Assembly (NCBI RefSeq): GCF_009834805.1
Contig: NZ_WVHO01000011.1
Location: forward strand, 310,001 to 374,000
Reading direction: 5' to 3'
Source: Saccharibacter sp. 17.LH.SD
GTDB lineage: Bacteria > Pseudomonadota > Alphaproteobacteria > Acetobacterales > Acetobacteraceae
DNA: 64,000 nucleotides
Shown here: positions 31,482-40,507 of the stretch, piece by piece
Numbering within the stretch: the first letter of the stretch is position 1
How the letters are laid out: each line of letters opens with the position of its first letter
Translations under genes and position numbers: made by a program
Notes under the pieces: model-generated
The model's database searches: none
What the model was told of the DNA's origin: nothing
Seen by the model: the letters and a program-made list of their open reading frames with translations, nothing else

Positions 31482-31789
31482 TTGCGCCCCTTTGTTCCAT
31501 TGCGACTATTCCTTTCTACCCAAGGCATATCAACGAATCCACTCGATTAACTTAAAAAATTTTATTAACTACCCAACATATCTGCCCCGAATTTCAACAA
31601 AAAGAAAATTTCTTCATTCTATTTTTCCCTGTTTTCTGCCTTGATTTATGTCAATAACTCCATTTTTTCGGAGTTTTTCAATGAAATTAGGGTTGCATCT
31701 TTTAGTAAAGTTATTTTGTTAAGTGACGTAACTCTCCTTAAGAGCTCTTTCTTTGGGAGATGCGCCATTCTGGCAAGGGAGGTCACATC
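31482..31789. other. Promoter region before the peroxiredoxin and cyd genes
   Basis: This 308-bp AT-rich divergent spacer contains the FNR-like box at 31641-31654 and, just after it, a 6-bp hairpin AACTCC/GGAGTT (31656-31675) followed by T's. The remainder holds no convincing ORF. A strong GGGAGG ribosome site at 31778-31783 sets the cydD start at 31790. Confidence 0.55.
31641..31654. promoter_or_regulatory. FNR/ANR-type box upstream of cydDCAB
   Basis: TTGAT-TTAT-GTCAA matches the FNR consensus TTGAT-N4-ATCAA in 9 of 10 defined positions. It lies about 136 bp before the cydD start. Oxygen-responsive control of a high-affinity oxidase operon by an FNR-class activator would make sense, but no regulator is encoded in the window. 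Confidence 0.55.
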
Positions 31790-33478
31790 ATGGCTGAGTG
31801 TCTCAGGGCACACCCACGTCCGACATTGTCAGGGCTGACAAATCGGGCCTCTCTTCCCTTAGCCTTATCCGTTACTCTAGGCGGCATAGGGGCCACCCTC
31901 CTAATTGGGCAGATGTATCTTCTGGCCACGATCGTAACGGACATCGCCTTTCGTCATCACACCCTTTATCAAGAGAAAACACTCGCTTTATTATTACTAC
32001 TCGCCGTCATGCTGCGCGCACTCTGCCAAGCGGGCGCTGATAGCTGTGGTGATCTCGCTGGGCAAAAAGCAACAGCCTCTCTGCGCCTTGAGGTCATAGA
32101 ACATCTTTTCCAGGTCGGGCCTGTCGGGCTTTCACACCAAAATAGCGGCCATATTGCGACAACCCTTTCAGAAGGGATTGACGCGCTTCAACCCTATATT
32201 GCGCGCTATATGCCGCGTGCTGCAGCCATGGTTGTCACACCACTGCTCATCATGGCTGTTGTTTTAAAGCTCGACATATGGAGCTTTCTTATCCTTGCCG
32301 TCACAGGGCCACTAATCCCTCTTTTCATGGCGCTCGTTGGCTATGGTGCACAGAGCATCATGGACCGTAAATGGACGGAACTCCTGCTCCTTGGCGCATC
32401 CTTTTTAGACATGCTTCAAGGCATCACAACGCTCCGCCTTTTCGGCCGCTCCCGCGACAGCGTCACACTCGTTGCACATATGGCGCATCAACATCGGCAA
32501 AGCACAATGGCTGTCATGCGCGTGGCTTTTCTGACTTCAGCGGTCTTAGAATTCTTTTCTAGTCTTTCTATTGCGCTTGTCGCTGTGGCTTTTGGCGCAC
32601 GGCTCCTCAATGCAAGCTTTGCCTTTCAAGATGCCTTTATTGTGCTCTTGCTTGCTCCAGAATTCTTCATGCCATTGCGTAATTTTTCAGCAAGTTACCA
32701 TGCACGGCAGAACGCAACGAGTGCTTTTAAACCCATTATCGCGTTACTAAAATTACCCGCGCTCCGTGATCTCCCACCGACAACGCGCCCTTCTCCACTC
32801 CCCAATATCTTTACCTTAGAAATCAATGATCTTAGGGCGGGATACGGAAAGGATGAGGACACCCTCAAAGGAGTTTCTGCGACCTTCCGTCCAAACGAGC
32901 TCACAGTTATTACTGGAGCAAGCGGAAGCGGAAAAAGCACCCTGTTGCGTCTTCTGTTAGGGATGATGCCCCCTCGCCAAGGGAGCTTATCCCTTCGCCT
33001 GACCAATGGCCGCACACACACGATACAAGACGCTCCCATCGGCTGGGTTCCCCAACGCCCATTTATCTTAGCCGATAGCATCTCTGCAAACTTACGGTTA
33101 GGAGCTCCGGACGCCAGCGACGAACTTCTGCAACAAATCCTTGAGGAGGTCGGATTGTGGAACACCATCACTGCACTGCCAAACAGCCTTCAAACAATCT
33201 TAGGAGAAAATGGAGCCCCTTTCTCAGCAGGGCAAATCCGCCGTTTAGCACTAGCCCGTGCTCTGCTTGGCCATCCACAAATTCTCCTTTTTGATGAGCC
33301 TACCTCAGATCTTGATGAAGAAAATGCACGCCTCGTGGCTTCATGCCTAGCCCGTACAGTGCATACAGGACGAATCAGCCTGGCGATTACGCATCGTCAC
33401 GATCTGTTAGAACAAGCGCATCATATTCTTCATCTTTCTCAAGGGCGCTTGGCTCCCATGGAAAGGAGCGCCGCATGA
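31790..33478 (+). CDS. cydD: Cysteine/glutathione ABC exporter subunit CydD
   Basis: The 562-residue half-transporter has an N-terminal six-helix membrane domain and a nucleotide-binding domain with Walker A GASGSGKSTLL, a signature FSAGQIRRLAL (Ala replacing the second Ser/Gly of LSGGQ) and Walker B ILLFDEPTSDLD. CydDC exports reductant thiols to the periplasm and is required to assemble cytochrome bd. The start at 31790 is set by GGGAGG seven nt upstream; the longer frame from 31760 is not preferred. The stop overlaps the cydC start (ATGA). Confidence 0.93.
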   Translation: MAECLRAHPRPTLSGLTNRASLPLALSVTLGGIGATLLIGQMYLLATIVTDIAFRHHTLYQEKTLALLLLLAVMLRALCQAGADSCGDLAGQKATASLRLEVIEHLFQVGPVGLSHQNSGHIATTLSEGIDALQPYIARYMPRAAAMVVTPLLIMAVVLKLDIWSFLILAVTGPLIPLFMALVGYGAQSIMDRKWTELLLLGASFLDMLQGITTLRLFGRSRDSVTLVAHMAHQHRQSTMAVMRVAFLTSAVLEFFSSLSIALVAVAFGARLLNASFAFQDAFIVLLLAPEFFMPLRNFSASYHARQNATSAFKPIIALLKLPALRDLPPTTRPSPLPNIFTLEINDLRAGYGKDEDTLKGVSATFRPNELTVITGASGSGKSTLLRLLLGMMPPRQGSLSLRLTNGRTHTIQDAPIGWVPQRPFILADSISANLRLGAPDASDELLQQILEEVGLWNTITALPNSLQTILGENGAPFSAGQIRRLALARALLGHPQILLFDEPTSDLDEENARLVASCLARTVHTGRISLAITHRHDLLEQAHHILHLSQGRLAPMERSAA

Positions 33479-35178
33479 CACAGCGTTCCCCTTCATCTTT
33501 CTCCATTCGTCCTTTCCTCTATCACGCCCGCGGTCCTTTGCTGATCGGGCTGTGCCTCTCATGTCTTGCCACATTAGCAAATTTCGGATTGCTCTTTCTC
33601 TCCGGGTGGCTCTTGGCAGGTGCTGCTGCTGCCGGTCTTGGCGGAGTCATCACCCAAAACATGTTTAATATGGGCCTCCCCGCAGTCGGCGTACGTTTCT
33701 TCGCGACTGTCCGGATCGTGGCCCGCTATGCTGAAAGGCTTGTGACGCATGACGCGGCATTTCGTGTCACAGGGCAACTCCGTACCCATAGCTTCCAAAC
33801 CCTGATTCCTCGCTCGGAAAGCTTAGCGACACGCACACGCAGCGGTGATGTCCTCACTCGTTTTGTCAATGATACAGAGAAGCTTGGGCAATTCCCCCTT
33901 GATGTGCTTCTCCCCACATTATCAGCAACATTCTGCAGCACCGTTTCTGTGGGCATCACGGCTTATTTTAGCCCAAGTGCTGCCTGTGCTTTAGCGGGAG
34001 GGCTCCTCATAGGTGGCCTTCTGCTCCCCTGGATGATCGGTCGTCTCACAGATCACCTCGCACAAGCAAATACTCAACGCAGCACTGTCCTCCACAACGA
34101 TATATTAGAGACCATCCAGGGTATGGCTGATCTTTTATGCTGTGGGGCTGCTCCACGCCAACTGGCACGCATTACAGCACACCAAACGCAGCTAAACCGC
34201 CAAACCTTCGCCCACGCATTACGCTGCAATATCATTCGGAATATATTGCCCATTCTGTCCATAGTCTGTGTCCTAAGTGTTATCGCGTGCGCAGCTCATG
34301 GGCTGGAAACCGGACAACTCAATGGACCAGAACTCCCCATGTTGGGCATGGGAGCACTCGCTTCTTTTGAAATGATAGCCCCGCTTATGGAGGCACGCCT
34401 CGCTCAAGAACGCTTCCGTCAAGCCGCTCTACGTTCAGAAGAACTTTGCTCACTTCCGGTTCTCACACCGCCACCACAAACCACCACGGCACTCCCTTCA
34501 GCAAGGGAGCTCTCTTTTGACCAAGTTTCTTTGCGGTTTCATGAGGAAAATCTCCTGAAAGATATCTCCTTTTCTCTGCAGCCAGGGGAACGTATCGCGG
34601 TTACGGGCTCGTCTGGAGCAGGGAAATCGACCCTCGCACGCTTGGCTGTACGCCTAATCGACCCTGATCAAGGTCGTATTACGTTTGGTGGCACACCGCT
34701 TACCCGTTTCACAACAGAAGATCTCTCAGAGCACATCGGGATGCTCACCCAAACGGCTCACCTCTTCCAAGGAAGCATAAAGCGCAATCTCCTTATGGCT
34801 TGCCCAACAGCGACTGACGCCCAAATACACCAAGCTCTTGTTGCCGTCGGGCTCGATGAAGAAATCAATGCTATGCCGAATGGATTAGAGACACTTTGTG
34901 GCGACCATGGAGTGAGGCTTTCAGGTGGACAGGCACGGCGCCTTTCTGCCGCGCAAATCCTACTTCGTCGTCCAACACTTCTTGTGCTGGATGAGCCTAC
35001 AGAAAGTCTTCCCCCTACCACAGGTGTGGCCCTTATGGAGGGTCTACTAACCGCTCTGCCAGAAGCAAGCGTGTTGTGCATCACACACCGGCCAGAACCT
35101 CTCTCATTCATGCACCGTATCCTGCATTTGGAATGCGGACATCTCACAGAGAAAGGAGGTGATGCTTCCCCGCACTAG
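33475..35178 (+). CDS. cydC: Cysteine/glutathione ABC exporter subunit CydC
   Basis: The 567-residue partner of CydD has a membrane domain followed by an ATPase domain: Walker A GSSGAGKSTLARL, signature LSGGQARRLSAAQ and Walker B LLVLDEPTE. The ATG at 33475 overlaps the cydD stop and has AAGGAG just before it, indicating translational coupling. The Walker B region continues ESLPPTTG, where a D-loop would be expected as LD; this is slightly unusual. A long hairpin separates it from cydA. Confidence 0.93.
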   Translation: MTQRSPSSFSIRPFLYHARGPLLIGLCLSCLATLANFGLLFLSGWLLAGAAAAGLGGVITQNMFNMGLPAVGVRFFATVRIVARYAERLVTHDAAFRVTGQLRTHSFQTLIPRSESLATRTRSGDVLTRFVNDTEKLGQFPLDVLLPTLSATFCSTVSVGITAYFSPSAACALAGGLLIGGLLLPWMIGRLTDHLAQANTQRSTVLHNDILETIQGMADLLCCGAAPRQLARITAHQTQLNRQTFAHALRCNIIRNILPILSIVCVLSVIACAAHGLETGQLNGPELPMLGMGALASFEMIAPLMEARLAQERFRQAALRSEELCSLPVLTPPPQTTTALPSARELSFDQVSLRFHEENLLKDISFSLQPGERIAVTGSSGAGKSTLARLAVRLIDPDQGRITFGGTPLTRFTTEDLSEHIGMLTQTAHLFQGSIKRNLLMACPTATDAQIHQALVAVGLDEEINAMPNGLETLCGDHGVRLSGGQARRLSAAQILLRRPTLLVLDEPTESLPPTTGVALMEGLLTALPEASVLCITHRPEPLSFMHRILHLECGHLTEKGGDASPH

Positions 35179-35307: not shown

Positions 35308-36918
35308 GTGGATCTCATCAACCCACATGTTGTTGATCTATCGCGCTTTCAATTTGCGATGACAGCACTTTACCATTTTATGTTTGTCCCACTCACACTG
35401 GGGCTTACTTTTCTTCTTGCGGCTATCGAAACCGTTTATGTCGTCACGGGCCGTGAAATTTACCGCAAGATGGCCAAGTTTTGGGGCCATCTCTTTGCCA
35501 TCAACTTTGCCCTCGGCGTCGCAACCGGGCTTACGATGGAATTTGAGTTCGGCACAAACTGGTCGATGTATTCGCACTTCTTCGGCGACCTCTTTGGCAC
35601 TCCCTTAGCCCTTGAAGGCCTCATGGCTTTCTTCATGGAATCCACATTCGTTGGTTTGTTGGTTTTCGGGTGGGATCGCCTCAGCCGTGCCTCCCATCTC
35701 GCCGTCACCTACTTGGTTGCTGCGGGATCAAACCTTTCCGCTTTGTGGATCCTGATCGCCAATGCAGGGATGAACGTCCCAGAAGGCACCCACTTCGACC
35801 CTGATACCATGCGGATGCAGTTTGATAGCTTCGTCCACCTCGTCTTCAGTGAAGATGCACAAGCGAAGTTTGTTCATACGTCCGTCGCAGGTTATGTCGC
35901 TGCTTCCATGCTTATTATGGGAATCAGCGCCTTTTATCTACTCCGCCGTCAACACCGGGAAATGGCGCTCCGCTCTTTCCGTATCGCTACCTTGTTCGGT
36001 CTCATCTCTTCTGTCGCGGTAATCACACTTGGTGACGTCCTCGGCCGGATGGATTACCAAAAACAGCCTACAAAGATCGCCGCTATTGAAGGATTGTGGC
36101 ACACATCAAAACCACCCTTTGCTCCGTGGGCTGCCTTTGCTCTCCCCGATGATGCAAAGCAGGAAAATCACCTAGAAATCGGCATCCCTTTTGTTCTAAC
36201 ACCTCTCATTACCCATAGCTTTAACCAACCTATTACGGGAATGCGTGAGCTTGAAGAACAAGCTGATCCTCATATTCGTTCAGGAATCATCGCTCTTACT
36301 GCGTTAAAGCACTATGGCGAAACGCATTCCAAACAAGACCTTGCTGATTTTCGTGCTCACGAAGACGATATGGGCTACGGCTTTCTCGCCATGCGTCACA
36401 GCCCTGGCCAAGATGTCAGTACGATCCCTGCCTCTGAGCTGGATCGCATCGTCAAACAAACACAACCAGATATTCTGCCAAATGTTTTCGTTACCTTTTG
36501 GTCCTTCCGTATCATGGTTGTTCTGGGTGGCTATTTCTTCATCTTCTTCGCGTTCACAACTCTTCTCAGCTTACGCAACAAGCTAGAAAGTAATCGTTGG
36601 ATCTTGAAGCTTGCTGTCTGGTCGATCCCTCTTCCTGTCATGGCAACCGAATTTGGGTGGATCACGGCAGAAGCAGGACGTCAGCCATGGACCGTCTTTA
36701 ACCGTCTTCCAACGTTCCTCTCCTCTTCCAGCCACACTGTGAGTTACATGACCTTCTCACTCGCAGGATTTATTCTGCTCTACAGTGTGCTGATTGTCGC
36801 CGAGTTTTACCTCATGTTCCGTTTCGCACGCCGTGGTCCCGAAACGCATGAACCTCAAGAGCAAAACTCCCAAGACAGCGTTGTTTCTAATCTAAACATC
36901 GTCCAGGGAGGTCATTAA
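35308..36918 (+). CDS. cydA: Cytochrome bd quinol oxidase subunit I
   Basis: The 536-residue haem-bearing subunit oxidises quinol and reduces O2 in the inner membrane. Ligands are visible: H23 (ALYHFMF), H190 (AKFVHTSVAGY), M403 (RIMVVLGG), and the proton-path glutamates E103 and E111 (ALEGLMAFFMES). The Q-loop pair K256/E261 (TKIAAIEG) corresponds to E. coli K252/E257. Length and the long Q loop indicate the long-loop (E. coli-like) type. The start is GTG at 35308 with AGGAGG five nt upstream. cydB follows after 2 nt. Confidence 0.97.
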   Translation: MDLINPHVVDLSRFQFAMTALYHFMFVPLTLGLTFLLAAIETVYVVTGREIYRKMAKFWGHLFAINFALGVATGLTMEFEFGTNWSMYSHFFGDLFGTPLALEGLMAFFMESTFVGLLVFGWDRLSRASHLAVTYLVAAGSNLSALWILIANAGMNVPEGTHFDPDTMRMQFDSFVHLVFSEDAQAKFVHTSVAGYVAASMLIMGISAFYLLRRQHREMALRSFRIATLFGLISSVAVITLGDVLGRMDYQKQPTKIAAIEGLWHTSKPPFAPWAAFALPDDAKQENHLEIGIPFVLTPLITHSFNQPITGMRELEEQADPHIRSGIIALTALKHYGETHSKQDLADFRAHEDDMGYGFLAMRHSPGQDVSTIPASELDRIVKQTQPDILPNVFVTFWSFRIMVVLGGYFFIFFAFTTLLSLRNKLESNRWILKLAVWSIPLPVMATEFGWITAEAGRQPWTVFNRLPTFLSSSSHTVSYMTFSLAGFILLYSVLIVAEFYLMFRFARRGPETHEPQEQNSQDSVVSNLNIVQGGH

Positions 36919-36920
36919 TC

Positions 36921-38060
36921 ATGACCGTTTATATCGTTCTTAAGCTGATCTGGACCGGCCTTTTAGGAGTCCTCCTAACAGGGCTTGGCCTCATGGTGGG
37001 AATGGATATGGGGGTCGGCACGCTCCTCCGTTTTATCGGACGTGATGATGCTGAACGCCGTACCATGCTCAATATTATTGGCCCCCATTGGGACGGAAAC
37101 CAGGTATGGTTCGTTTTAGGAGGCGGCGCGATTTTTGCCGCGTTCCCCTCCCTTTACGGCACCTCCTTCTCTGTCTTTTATGTCGTGATGATCCTGCTTC
37201 TCTTCAGCATGATCTTACGCCCTGCGGCTTTCGAGTTTCGCTCTAAAGTCAGCAACAAATATTGGCGCTCAAGCTGGGATGTTGCCTTTTTAATTTCTGG
37301 CTTCGTCCCCATGTTCGCCTACGGCGTAACCATTGGGAATATCTTAGAAGGCGTTGGGTATCACTTCCTCTGGACAGGCCAATATATCCAAGATGAAAAC
37401 TTCCTGAGCTATCTCATAAACCCTTTCGCTATTCTGTGTGGCCTTATGAGTGTTGCTCTCAGCGTACAACAAGCAGGGTCTATGCTAATGCTTCGCGCTG
37501 AAGAACCACTTTATAGCCGGGCCAAGAATTATGCCTCACCTGGAGGAATAATCGCGGCAATTCTGTTCGTTATCGGTGGCGTCTGGATCCAGTTTATCAA
37601 AGGCTTTGCACTTACAGCACCTGTTGATTATAACATGCCGGCAAACCCACTTCATGGGCAAAGTGTCGTCATGCGCGAAGGTGCCTGGATGGATAATTTC
37701 CATGCCCATCCTGTCCTCTGGATCCTCCCAGCAATTGGCGTATTCTGCATGATTGCAAGCTCTGTTCTCCTTCGCCTCGACCGTGCTGGCCTGGCTTGGT
37801 GGTTAGGAGCAGGCTCCTGGTTCGGAACTATCGCCACAGTTGGTGCGGCAATGTTCCCCTTCCTTATGCCATCCTCCACACGCCCTGACCAAAGCCTCAG
37901 CACTTGGAATGCGACAGGAAGTGAATACGGGCTTATTTGCATGCTCGTCGCGACATCCATCTTCATGCCTATCATCATTTGCTATACGGCGTGGTGCTAT
38001 CACGTCATGCGCGGCAAGGTCAGTGTCCGCGATGTTCTCAACAGTCATGATAGCTATTAG
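36921..38060 (+). CDS. cydB: Cytochrome bd quinol oxidase subunit II
   Basis: The 379-residue membrane partner of CydA contains LTGLGLMVGMDMGVGTLL near the start, GPHWDGNQVWFVLGGGAIFAAFP (with the conserved WDGNQVW) and RPAAFEFRSK. It stabilises the haem d site and, in E. coli-like enzymes, pairs structurally with CydA. It is placed directly between cydA and the cydX-like gene, 15 nt before the latter. Confidence 0.97.
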   Translation: MTVYIVLKLIWTGLLGVLLTGLGLMVGMDMGVGTLLRFIGRDDAERRTMLNIIGPHWDGNQVWFVLGGGAIFAAFPSLYGTSFSVFYVVMILLLFSMILRPAAFEFRSKVSNKYWRSSWDVAFLISGFVPMFAYGVTIGNILEGVGYHFLWTGQYIQDENFLSYLINPFAILCGLMSVALSVQQAGSMLMLRAEEPLYSRAKNYASPGGIIAAILFVIGGVWIQFIKGFALTAPVDYNMPANPLHGQSVVMREGAWMDNFHAHPVLWILPAIGVFCMIASSVLLRLDRAGLAWWLGAGSWFGTIATVGAAMFPFLMPSSTRPDQSLSTWNATGSEYGLICMLVATSIFMPIIICYTAWCYHVMRGKVSVRDVLNSHDSY

Positions 38061-38075
38061 AGGGGAGATCGTCTT

Positions 38076-38294
38076 ATGCCTCGTTATCTATCCACATTGC
38101 TAAAGCTAGCGGGTCTCGCACTTGCACTCGTCATAGCTCTTCTTTTCGCTGTATTCGTTGGCGACCAAGGCCCATGGTACTTTGCTTGGGTGATCGGCAC
38201 AGTCATGATCATTCTCATTTCGGCATCAGGCGCCGCTCTTTTCGACGCTCAAGAGCAACGTAACAATCTTCTCAACAAGGAGAACCAGTCATGA
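38076..38294 (+). CDS. CydX-like small subunit with an extra N-terminal helix
   Basis: The 72-residue protein has two predicted membrane helices. The second begins WYFAWVIGT (residues 34-42), matching the CydX opening WYFAWILGT at 7 of 9 positions, then continues as a helix with a charged tail (FDAQEQRNN). Ordinary CydX proteins are 30-40 residues and begin with that motif. Here it is preceded by LLKLAGLALALVIALLFAVFVGDQG, a first helix. It sits 15 nt after cydB, as cydX does in Proteobacteria. It is likely an accessory subunit of the bd oxidase; the fusion is inferred. Confidence 0.8.
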   Translation: MPRYLSTLLKLAGLALALVIALLFAVFVGDQGPWYFAWVIGTVMIILISASGAALFDAQEQRNNLLNKENQS

Positions 38295-38389
38295 TGGGTG
38301 ACCTTGAAGGAATTATCTTCTTTATTCCTTTTGTTTATATGGCCATTTACTTAACAGCTGCTTTTATTATGAAGCGTCTTGAGCCTTAA
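38291..38389 (+). CDS. 32-residue single-helix membrane protein of the cyd operon
   Basis: The sequence starts MMGDLEGIIFFIPFVYMAIY and continues LTAAFIMKRLEP. It has one hydrophobic helix and charged ends. The ATG at 38291 overlaps the stop of the CydX-like gene (ATGA), and AAGGAG lies eight nt upstream, so translation is well supported. It is the last gene before the operon terminator. It does not match CydX, YbgE or CydH as I know them. A small accessory subunit of the oxidase is plausible. Confidence 0.7.
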   Translation: MMGDLEGIIFFIPFVYMAIYLTAAFIMKRLEP

Positions 38390-38408: not shown

Positions 38409-38433
38409 AAAGCCGTCCAAAACGGACGGCTTT
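38409..38433 (+). terminator. Terminator of the cyd operon
   Basis: AAAGCCGTCC (38409-38418) pairs with GGACGGCTTT (38424-38433) around a 5-nt loop, 20 nt after the last small gene. Confidence 0.8.
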
Positions 38434-38522: not shown

Positions 38523-39437
38523 ATGACTCCTCTCCCCCGACAGTACCTGTCTGGCTTATTGGCCGTCATTTGTGCTTCTATCATCTGGGGAAGTATCGGC
38601 ATCGCTGCCAACATGGCATCACAGGTTGCACCAATGACGATGGGTGCTGCGGCCATGGCAGGAGGAGGGTTTTTACAAGCCATAAGTGCGGTATCTTCTA
38701 TTCAACGATCCCTTTCCAATCTCCGTCCTTTATGGGGCTATGTGCTCCTCGGCGGTCTCGCCGTCGCTATTGATCCACTCGCCTTTTACACATCAATGCA
38801 TCTTGCCGGTGTTGCCGCCAGTACAGTAGTCGCCCTTGGCTCAGCCCCACTTTTCTCAGCCGTCATTGATACGGTAATGGACCGCTCCAAATTAGGCATC
38901 AGATGGGGTGTAAGCGCCTTTCTCGGTATTGCGGGAATCACAGCGCTTAGTTTTGCTGAAACACATGGTGCTCATCAAACCGCCCCTGCGCCACTCCTCG
39001 GGATTTTTCTTGCTCTCATTATGGGGTTTACGTACGCCTTTTATTCATGGGCTGCTCACCGCTTAATGCATCGTCATATTCCCGCGCGAGCCGCTATGGG
39101 CAGTATCTTCGGCGTTGGAGCCCTCTTCCTTACACCTTTTCTTATCATAACGGGGGGCGCTCTTCTCCACCCATGGCATAATATTGCTGTCAGCCTTTAT
39201 CTCGCCGTTATCCCTATGTTTTGCGGTTTTACACTTTTTGGCTATGGGCTCCGCTTCTTGCCGGCCAGTATCGCAACGACAATCACATTACTTGAACCAA
39301 CAATCGCCGCTATTTTAGCAACCACACTCCTGGGAGAGCATCTCTCTCTAACGGGATGGCTTGGAATTGTCACGATCATGGCGAGCCTCCTCTGCGTCAC
39401 ATGGCCAGGGAAAAGTGCTGTTACCGAACGTGACTAA
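38523..39437 (+). CDS. EamA/DMT superfamily transporter, copy 1
   Basis: The 304-residue protein has about ten hydrophobic helices in two EamA repeats. Family wording includes SIIWGSIGIAANMASQVAPMTMGAAAMAGGG at the start and FGYGLRFLPASIATTITLLEPTIAAILATTLLGE in the second repeat. DMT proteins export or import metabolites; substrate cannot be predicted. A tandem paralogue follows at 39587 with the same segments (ASTATTITLLEPTVAAILAV). Confidence 0.88.
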   Translation: MTPLPRQYLSGLLAVICASIIWGSIGIAANMASQVAPMTMGAAAMAGGGFLQAISAVSSIQRSLSNLRPLWGYVLLGGLAVAIDPLAFYTSMHLAGVAASTVVALGSAPLFSAVIDTVMDRSKLGIRWGVSAFLGIAGITALSFAETHGAHQTAPAPLLGIFLALIMGFTYAFYSWAAHRLMHRHIPARAAMGSIFGVGALFLTPFLIITGGALLHPWHNIAVSLYLAVIPMFCGFTLFGYGLRFLPASIATTITLLEPTIAAILATTLLGEHLSLTGWLGIVTIMASLLCVTWPGKSAVTERD

Positions 39438-39586: not shown

Positions 39587-40507
39587 ATGTCAGAATCCTC
39601 TAAAGAAACCGTTTTCGGCTTAATCAGTATCACTCTTGCCGCAATTCTTTGGGGGACTACGGGCGTAGCCGCCAGCTTCGCCCCCCAAATATCTGCCATC
39701 ACGATGGGGGCCATCGCCATGGGAGGTGGAGGCCTTTTACAAGCAATCCGCGCCGCGCCATTTTTTAAAAAATCATTGCCTGCCCTCAAAAAGCAATGGC
39801 CGATCACACTCCTGGGTGGAATCGCGGTGATGGTTTACCCTTTGGCCTTCTATAGCTCTATGCGTTTAGCCGGTATTACCGTTGGAACCGTCATCTCAAT
39901 GGGGTCAGCGCCTCTCTTTGCGGCCATTGTGGATATGGTCATGGATGGGGTCCGCCCCTCTAAGCGCTGGGGCATTAGTACCTCTCTCGGTATTCTGGGT
40001 ATTGCTCTGCTCAGTTTTGCTGAAAGCTTTACCCACTCCCAGCCCACAGCCACGACAGCTCCAGCCCCGCTCGTCGGAATCCTCATAGGGCTTATTGCTG
40101 GCTTTACATATTCTTTTTACTCATGGGCAGCACGTCACCTCATGCATCATGCTATTTTGCCACGGGCTGCAATGGGAAGTATTTTTGGGGTTGGCAGCCT
40201 CTTCCTCCTGCCCATTATCCTTACAACCGGTAAAAGCCTCTTTTACTCTTGGAATAATGTGTTTGTAGGATGCTATATGATCCTCATCCCCATGTTCTTA
40301 GGCTATCTCTGCTTTGGTTACGGCCTCGCACGCGTTCCTGCCAGCACAGCCACCACCATCACCCTACTAGAACCCACCGTAGCCGCTATATTAGCTGTGC
40401 TTATCGTCGGGGAGCGCCTTCCTCTCGCTGGCTGGAGTGGAATCGCACTTATCATGGCCAGTCTCATCTGCATCACATGGCCTCGAAAACGCTTAAAACA
40501 CCCTTAA
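39587..40507 (+). CDS. EamA/DMT superfamily transporter, copy 2
   Basis: This 306-residue tandem paralogue of the 38523 gene has ILWGTTGVAASFAPQISAITMGAIAMGGGGLLQAI in the first repeat and FGYGLARVPASTATTITLLEPTVAAILAVLIVGE in the second. The two probably arose by duplication and diverged moderately. It converges with the permease gene at 40513 with only 5 nt between stop codons. Substrate unknown. Confidence 0.88.
   Translation: MSESSKETVFGLISITLAAILWGTTGVAASFAPQISAITMGAIAMGGGGLLQAIRAAPFFKKSLPALKKQWPITLLGGIAVMVYPLAFYSSMRLAGITVGTVISMGSAPLFAAIVDMVMDGVRPSKRWGISTSLGILGIALLSFAESFTHSQPTATTAPAPLVGILIGLIAGFTYSFYSWAARHLMHHAILPRAAMGSIFGVGSLFLLPIILTTGKSLFYSWNNVFVGCYMILIPMFLGYLCFGYGLARVPASTATTITLLEPTVAAILAVLIVGERLPLAGWSGIALIMASLICITWPRKRLKHP

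Follow-up and report, generated by a model that had tools for sequence, protein, structure and literature searches.

The stability of the hemes and the access of oxygen in cytochrome bd oxidases are governed by small subunits; CydH of Escherichia coli alters which channel O2 takes. YbgE, which is also encoded in cyd operons, is a membrane protein of about 95-100 residues. The extra helices described for bd oxidases occupy two places: CydX, AppX and CydS lie near heme b558, and CydH fills a CydA cleft close to heme b595, blocking a gas channel there (PMC8951039, PMC6853902). The gene for E. coli CydH is placed outside the cyd operon (PMC6853902). Two further kinds of small protein encoded after cydB, CydZ (DUF2474) and the CydY of Allen et al. 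(2014), come from operons that have no cydX; in both, the helix opens with a conserved tryptophan, which is absolutely conserved in CydY (PMC4325964). CydX proteins with two helices are already known in print and are not new here, having been described by Allen et al. (2014, PMC4325964) and Degli Esposti et al. (2015, PMC5322542).

The window analyzed here, a stretch of 64,000 nucleotides from Saccharibacter sp. 17.LH.SD (contig NZ_WVHO01000011.1, positions 310,001 to 374,000), carries a cyd operon whose last ORF encodes a membrane protein of 32 residues (Table 1). The CydA of the window is closest to the long-Q-loop E. coli enzymes (by similarity; PDB 7ose_A and 6rko_A). We infer the CydDC names of both ABC transporter halves from gene order beside cydAB. 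Directly downstream of the operon there are two tandem, similar-looking ORFs (38523-39437 and 39587-40507), which by eye have the look of DMT/EamA-type transporters.

Table 1. Features of the cyd operon, in positions of the window.
Feature	Position	Strand	Remarks
cydD-type ABC transporter half	31760..33478	+	ABC_tran + ABC_membrane; cydD by position
cydC-type ABC transporter half	33343..35178	+	ABC_tran + ABC_membrane; longest ORF, true start probably further in
cydA, cytochrome bd subunit I, GTG start	35308..36918	+	Pfam PF01654; best PDB 7ose_A, 6rko_A
cydB, cytochrome bd subunit II	36921..38060	+	TIGR00203, E 2.9e-110
72-residue two-helix CydX-like protein	38076..38294	+	second helix bears WYFAWVIGT; YbgT_YccB below cut-off
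Ribosome-binding site AAGGAG	38277..38282	+	8 nt 5' of the ATG of the 32-residue ORF
32-residue single-helix membrane protein	38291..38389	+	ORF, MMGDLEGIIFFIPFVYMAIYLTAAFIMKRLEP
Probable operon-end hairpin, 10 bp	38409..38433	+	-17.2 kcal/mol, z = -6.8

The gene directly before the 32-residue ORF scored below the curated cut-offs of both CydX models (14.6 bits against 26.2 for Pfam YbgT_YccB, 16.2 bits against 31.6 for the NCBIfam CydX model), so automatic annotation with those models would miss it. All 25 aligned relatives of this 72-residue protein match YbgT_YccB (E up to 0.1), and the profile of its family finds E. coli CydX (6rko_X, E 0.0015) with the WYFAW motif aligned. We therefore identify it as the CydX of the window's operon, in the two-helix form. 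A plasmid search with the same protein gave a single weak match, in Thioclava.

A sequence-only reading had regarded the 32-residue ORF as almost certainly translated, on account of an ATGA overlap with the preceding gene, a good ribosome site and an operon terminator just after it. The overlap is seen where the TGA of the 72-residue ORF runs into the ATG of the 32-residue ORF, and AAGGAG with 8-nt spacing has a single occurrence in the window and none in 100 shuffles. The terminator stands in part: the hairpin that begins about 20 nt 3' of the stop codon is strong, but its T-tract on the + strand is short and a simple terminator pattern scan lists the - strand only, so it is the probable, not certain, terminator of the operon. 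Translation itself is upheld by purifying selection, which a comparison of the proposed Ka/Ks type detected (pooled pN/pS = 0.41 for nineteen 32-residue copies of the gene, below 1 in 170/170 scored pairs); changes relative to the nearest relative are distributed 6/1/15 over the three codon positions. The ORF is evidently a genuine gene and almost certainly translated.

Residue conservation was counted over 80 distinct sequences of the 32-residue family. The proline at position 13 is invariant (80/80), followed by E6 (79/80), I9 (77/80), Y16 (76/80, with Phe in the other 4) and A23 (72/80). Of the angles tried, 100 degrees gives the strongest helical periodicity of conservation (p = 0.005, permutation test), and the conserved positions form a stripe along the helix, E6-I9-P13-Y16-Y20-A23; AlphaFold2 puts the helix over residues 5-30. 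The eight N-terminal residues are net negative in 79/80 sequences and the nine C-terminal ones net positive in 78/80. The positive-inside rule thus predicts a periplasmic N-terminus and a cytoplasmic C-terminus; the C-terminus of E. coli CydX is also cytoplasmic (PMC6853902). Tryptophan is found anywhere in only 18/80 distinct sequences and is conserved in none of its positions.

The claim that this protein is not CydX, YbgE or CydH held in the sequence comparisons. The member from the window and three further members belong to no Pfam or NCBIfam family, and 25 aligned members gave few weak, scattered matches against these collections, each in at most 2/25 members. The profile of the family had no match in the PDB (best E 2), the CydH chain 6rko_H being absent at E up to 10, and hhalign of the family against CydH gave a probability of 0.1 with one aligned column. 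A CydX paralogue was rejected as well (hhalign probability against two-helix CydX, 0.1). Like CydX, AppX and CydS, the protein is small and hydrophobic, and the gene for CydX also follows cydB; however, this operon has its CydX in the gene just before, and the aromatic WYFAW-type helix start of CydX (PF08173, TIGR02106) is absent from the 32-residue protein and present in its neighbour. CydZ and CydY are likewise small proteins encoded after cydB, but they occur without CydX, whereas the 32-residue protein accompanies CydX and lacks their conserved tryptophan; it has no match to the CydZ family (PF10617), and the operon's CydA is, by similarity, of the long-Q-loop type, not the short-Q-loop type. 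YbgE shares the location in cyd operons but is longer. CydH (also named CydY or YnhF), the fourth subunit of E. coli bd-I, resembles the protein in its length of about 30 residues, its one helix and its occurrence in addition to CydX in a long-Q-loop enzyme. The two differ in that no sequence relation is detectable, in that the 32-residue gene closes its operon, and in the invariant mid-helix proline and near-invariant E6 of the 32-residue family. Like the single-helix small subunits of bd oxidases, the protein is encoded within the cyd operon, has a single membrane helix and is coinherited with cydAB, here with one cydAB lineage.

The screen of Allen et al. gave further hydrophobic small proteins near cydAB, which the authors did not present in full (PMC4325964), and it may have picked up this protein already. 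No description of it was found in the open-access literature, including passages of PMC8528912, PMC10715153 and PMC4596401; subscription papers and protein database entries were outside the scope of this search. The protein is most likely unrecognized and outside every named family, and pipelines built on Pfam or NCBIfam models, which do not cover it, would tend to miss its gene.

Both other genomes of the window's genus retain the protein (84% and 81% identity). In the Acetobacteraceae set 30 cydB loci were read, 25 with at least 59% CydB identity to the window and 5 with 42-47%. Two-helix CydX followed by the 32-residue gene is present at 25/25 of the former, while 5/5 of the latter have a short one-helix CydX without the 32-residue gene (one of them, L044, with only 335 nt downstream). 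In this way, the expected conservation and linkage to cydB are found throughout the close relatives, and the loss or broken frame that would have spoken against the gene is not, apart from one copy (L019 of genome G193, 1213-1287, - strand) that stops at codon 26 and is left with 25 of 32 residues. Either this copy was damaged recently, or losing the basic tail is tolerated. Two Komagataeibacter loci (L119 and L126) retain the full-length gene, unlike L019, and the copies of L037 and L038 are without the first few residues. When 200 genomes of the family were searched with the 32-residue profile, 26 had a match, and 25 of these are exactly the genomes with this cydB, each with the match beside it. 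The 26th (L156 in G220, contig C151, 4879-4956, - strand) is a remnant of 26 codons in which the invariant proline has become serine, and the 5.4-kb contig bearing it has no cydA, cydB or CydX. Two genomes of the same genus as G220 retain the whole operon. Another locus (L157, contig C57 of G207, 124-480) consists of a cydB fragment at the contig end with an in-frame TGA; the operon is intact in the other genomes of that genus.

When named genomes were scanned with the two-helix CydX, 153 relatives came out, and the best 80 of the 153, partly from the same genomes as the family set, were taken. At 74/80 of these loci a match to the 32-residue profile lies directly 3' of CydX, preceded in 72/74 by a ribosome-site-like stretch. 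The carriers among the 80 include Acetobacter, Gluconacetobacter, Komagataeibacter, Commensalibacter, Saccharibacter, Acidocella, Acidiphilium, Acidisoma and Acidithiobacillus. Every Acidithiobacillus locus among the 80 carries the gene (E 6e-9 to 8e-14), by a profile built without any Acidithiobacillus sequence. This genus belongs to a different class from the acetic acid bacteria, and the presence of the gene there was unexpected and goes beyond the sequence-only reading. The 6/80 loci without the gene are from Acidihalobacter, Oleiagrimonas, two Luteibacter, a gammaproteobacterial MAG and an unassigned MAG; in 5 of the 6, a long frame that by eye resembles an ABC half-transporter comes after CydX. 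In Acidihalobacter (L117), a hydrophobic ORF of up to 126 residues with a GTG start occupies the place of the 32-residue gene, and by eye it is possibly YbgE-like. L050, from a genome outside the family, has the two-helix CydX alone, and 31 other cydB loci (5 from the family and 26 from the phylum search) gave no match to the profile at E<1. A search of 398 Pseudomonadota genomes with the profile returned 6 matches, 4 in the family and 2 outside (G436 and G368); the latter two, neither beside cydB, were discarded as chance matches. In Acetobacter persici JCM 25330 (L146, 3139-3651), cydB aligns in part only and the CydX and 32-residue genes are intact; the partial cydB may reflect sequencing error, masking or a damaged gene.

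The CydB tree comprised 86 rows (76 of the 80 named loci, 4 with partial cydB being left out, together with the window and 9 others) and was rooted at the midpoint. A single branch splits the 74 rows with the 32-residue gene from the 12 without it (support 100/99), and 0/500 shuffles were as low as this one-branch mapping. The two-helix CydX proteins form a clade of 81 rows (support 100/99). The 32-residue gene was likely gained once. From the one supported branch nested in the two-helix CydX clade, the likely order of events is that CydX gained a helix, the 32-residue gene was then gained, and the operon spread over Acetobacteraceae and Acidithiobacillus. We infer horizontal transfer of the operon between these two groups, as Allen et al. 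did for the two-helix CydX group (PMC4325964).

AlphaFold2 modeling of CydX with the 32-residue protein (23 rows) gave helices at 2-27, 29-62 and 79-104, with a pTM of 0.34 that makes the model informative for secondary structure only. At 8/80 loci, cydA, cydB, CydX and the 32-residue gene are all in one frame. The four proteins were modeled as a single 1036-residue chain of L110 with stops read as Gly, from an alignment of 74 rows; the short rows of CydX with the 32-residue protein were left out, MAFFT having misplaced all 11. The core folds (pTM 0.75, mean pLDDT 75.7), and the CydX and 32-residue parts have pLDDT of about 33-50 and take no confident position, including in the cleft between TM1 and TM9 of CydA. 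Between two-helix-CydX operons with and without the 32-residue gene, 12 CydA positions (68 vs 6 sequences) and 16 CydB positions (71 vs 6) are fixed differently. These positions are confounded by phylogeny and were set aside as evidence of a docking site.

Because the gene directly before it is a two-helix CydX, the best reading of the 32-residue protein is a second small subunit. It is probably an additional subunit, with one helix and specific to this lineage, of a cytochrome bd quinol oxidase of the long-Q-loop (E. coli) type. The pattern is that of a stoichiometric small subunit: selection is purifying, one face is conserved, and the gene was likely gained once and has been kept almost throughout with one type of enzyme. 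Against this, some gammaproteobacterial enzymes with two-helix CydX do without the gene (among the 6/80 loci, and L050), one family genome has just 25 of the 32 residues, and the models place the protein nowhere with confidence. The protein would be made together with CydA, CydB and the two-helix CydX, insert with the acidic N-terminus facing the periplasm and the basic C-terminus facing the cytoplasm, and pack onto the CydAB core via the conserved stripe. There it would most likely stabilize the complex, and perhaps cover the lateral opening toward the hemes, like CydH in E. coli bd-I; its role may be that of a clamp, of an O2/quinone gate or in assembly. In this enzyme, the second helix of the 72-residue protein should occupy the place of CydX, which leaves the CydH cleft, the CydX flank or the CydB surface for the 32-residue helix. 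A CydH-like place is a tentative choice among these. Equally speculative is the proposal that the protein is an independently evolved equivalent of CydH. As a fourth subunit with its gene in the operon, it would seal the lateral O2/quinone opening close to heme b595, or act as its gate, in the bd oxidase common to acetic acid bacteria and Acidithiobacillus, and would have been gained once, after the second helix of CydX.

An assembly factor, which the sequence-only reading had named as possible beside a subunit, ranks behind it and is rather unlikely. Such a factor for assembly or heme insertion would bind nascent CydA or CydB transiently and be absent from the mature enzyme. It too should have this gene position and be retained together with the enzyme, and the CydDC-type ABC genes (by position) lie just upstream on the same strand. 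However, one helix with an acidic periplasmic end, a basic cytoplasmic end and one conserved face is the make-up of known stoichiometric small subunits, and the small bd proteins described in structures (CydX, CydS, CydH) are all subunits (PMC8951039). It is improbable that the protein regulates or accompanies something else (CydDC, for example, or the DMT-type transporter downstream) and merely shares the transcript: cotranscription by itself is no proof of a complex, but the gene is tied to the cydAB-CydX lineage across two classes of bacteria and has decayed where cydAB is gone (G220). A divergent CydH of the same family, seated in the same cleft between TM1 and TM9 of CydA, is very improbable. 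The failure of hhalign and of the PDB search to connect the two, and the location of the E. coli gene outside its cyd operon (PMC6853902), argue against it, although length, single helix and long-Q-loop enzyme all fit, the window's genome has no CydH-like match of its own (in a low-power search with a 29-residue query), and among 40 relatives only 1 has such a match (E 0.63, inside a 346-residue frame). The length of just 32 codons would suit a chance ORF, or a leader that is translated but has no function as a protein; either is hardly credible in view of the amino-acid conservation across two classes, the pN/pS value and the conserved helix face.

This enzyme serves acetic acid bacteria that make vinegar or live in insect guts, as well as bioleaching Acidithiobacillus. 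If the 32-residue protein is indeed an additional subunit, these bacteria would represent a second lineage that has an extra helix of its own, and the addition of helices to CydAB would be a recurrent way of tuning the enzyme.
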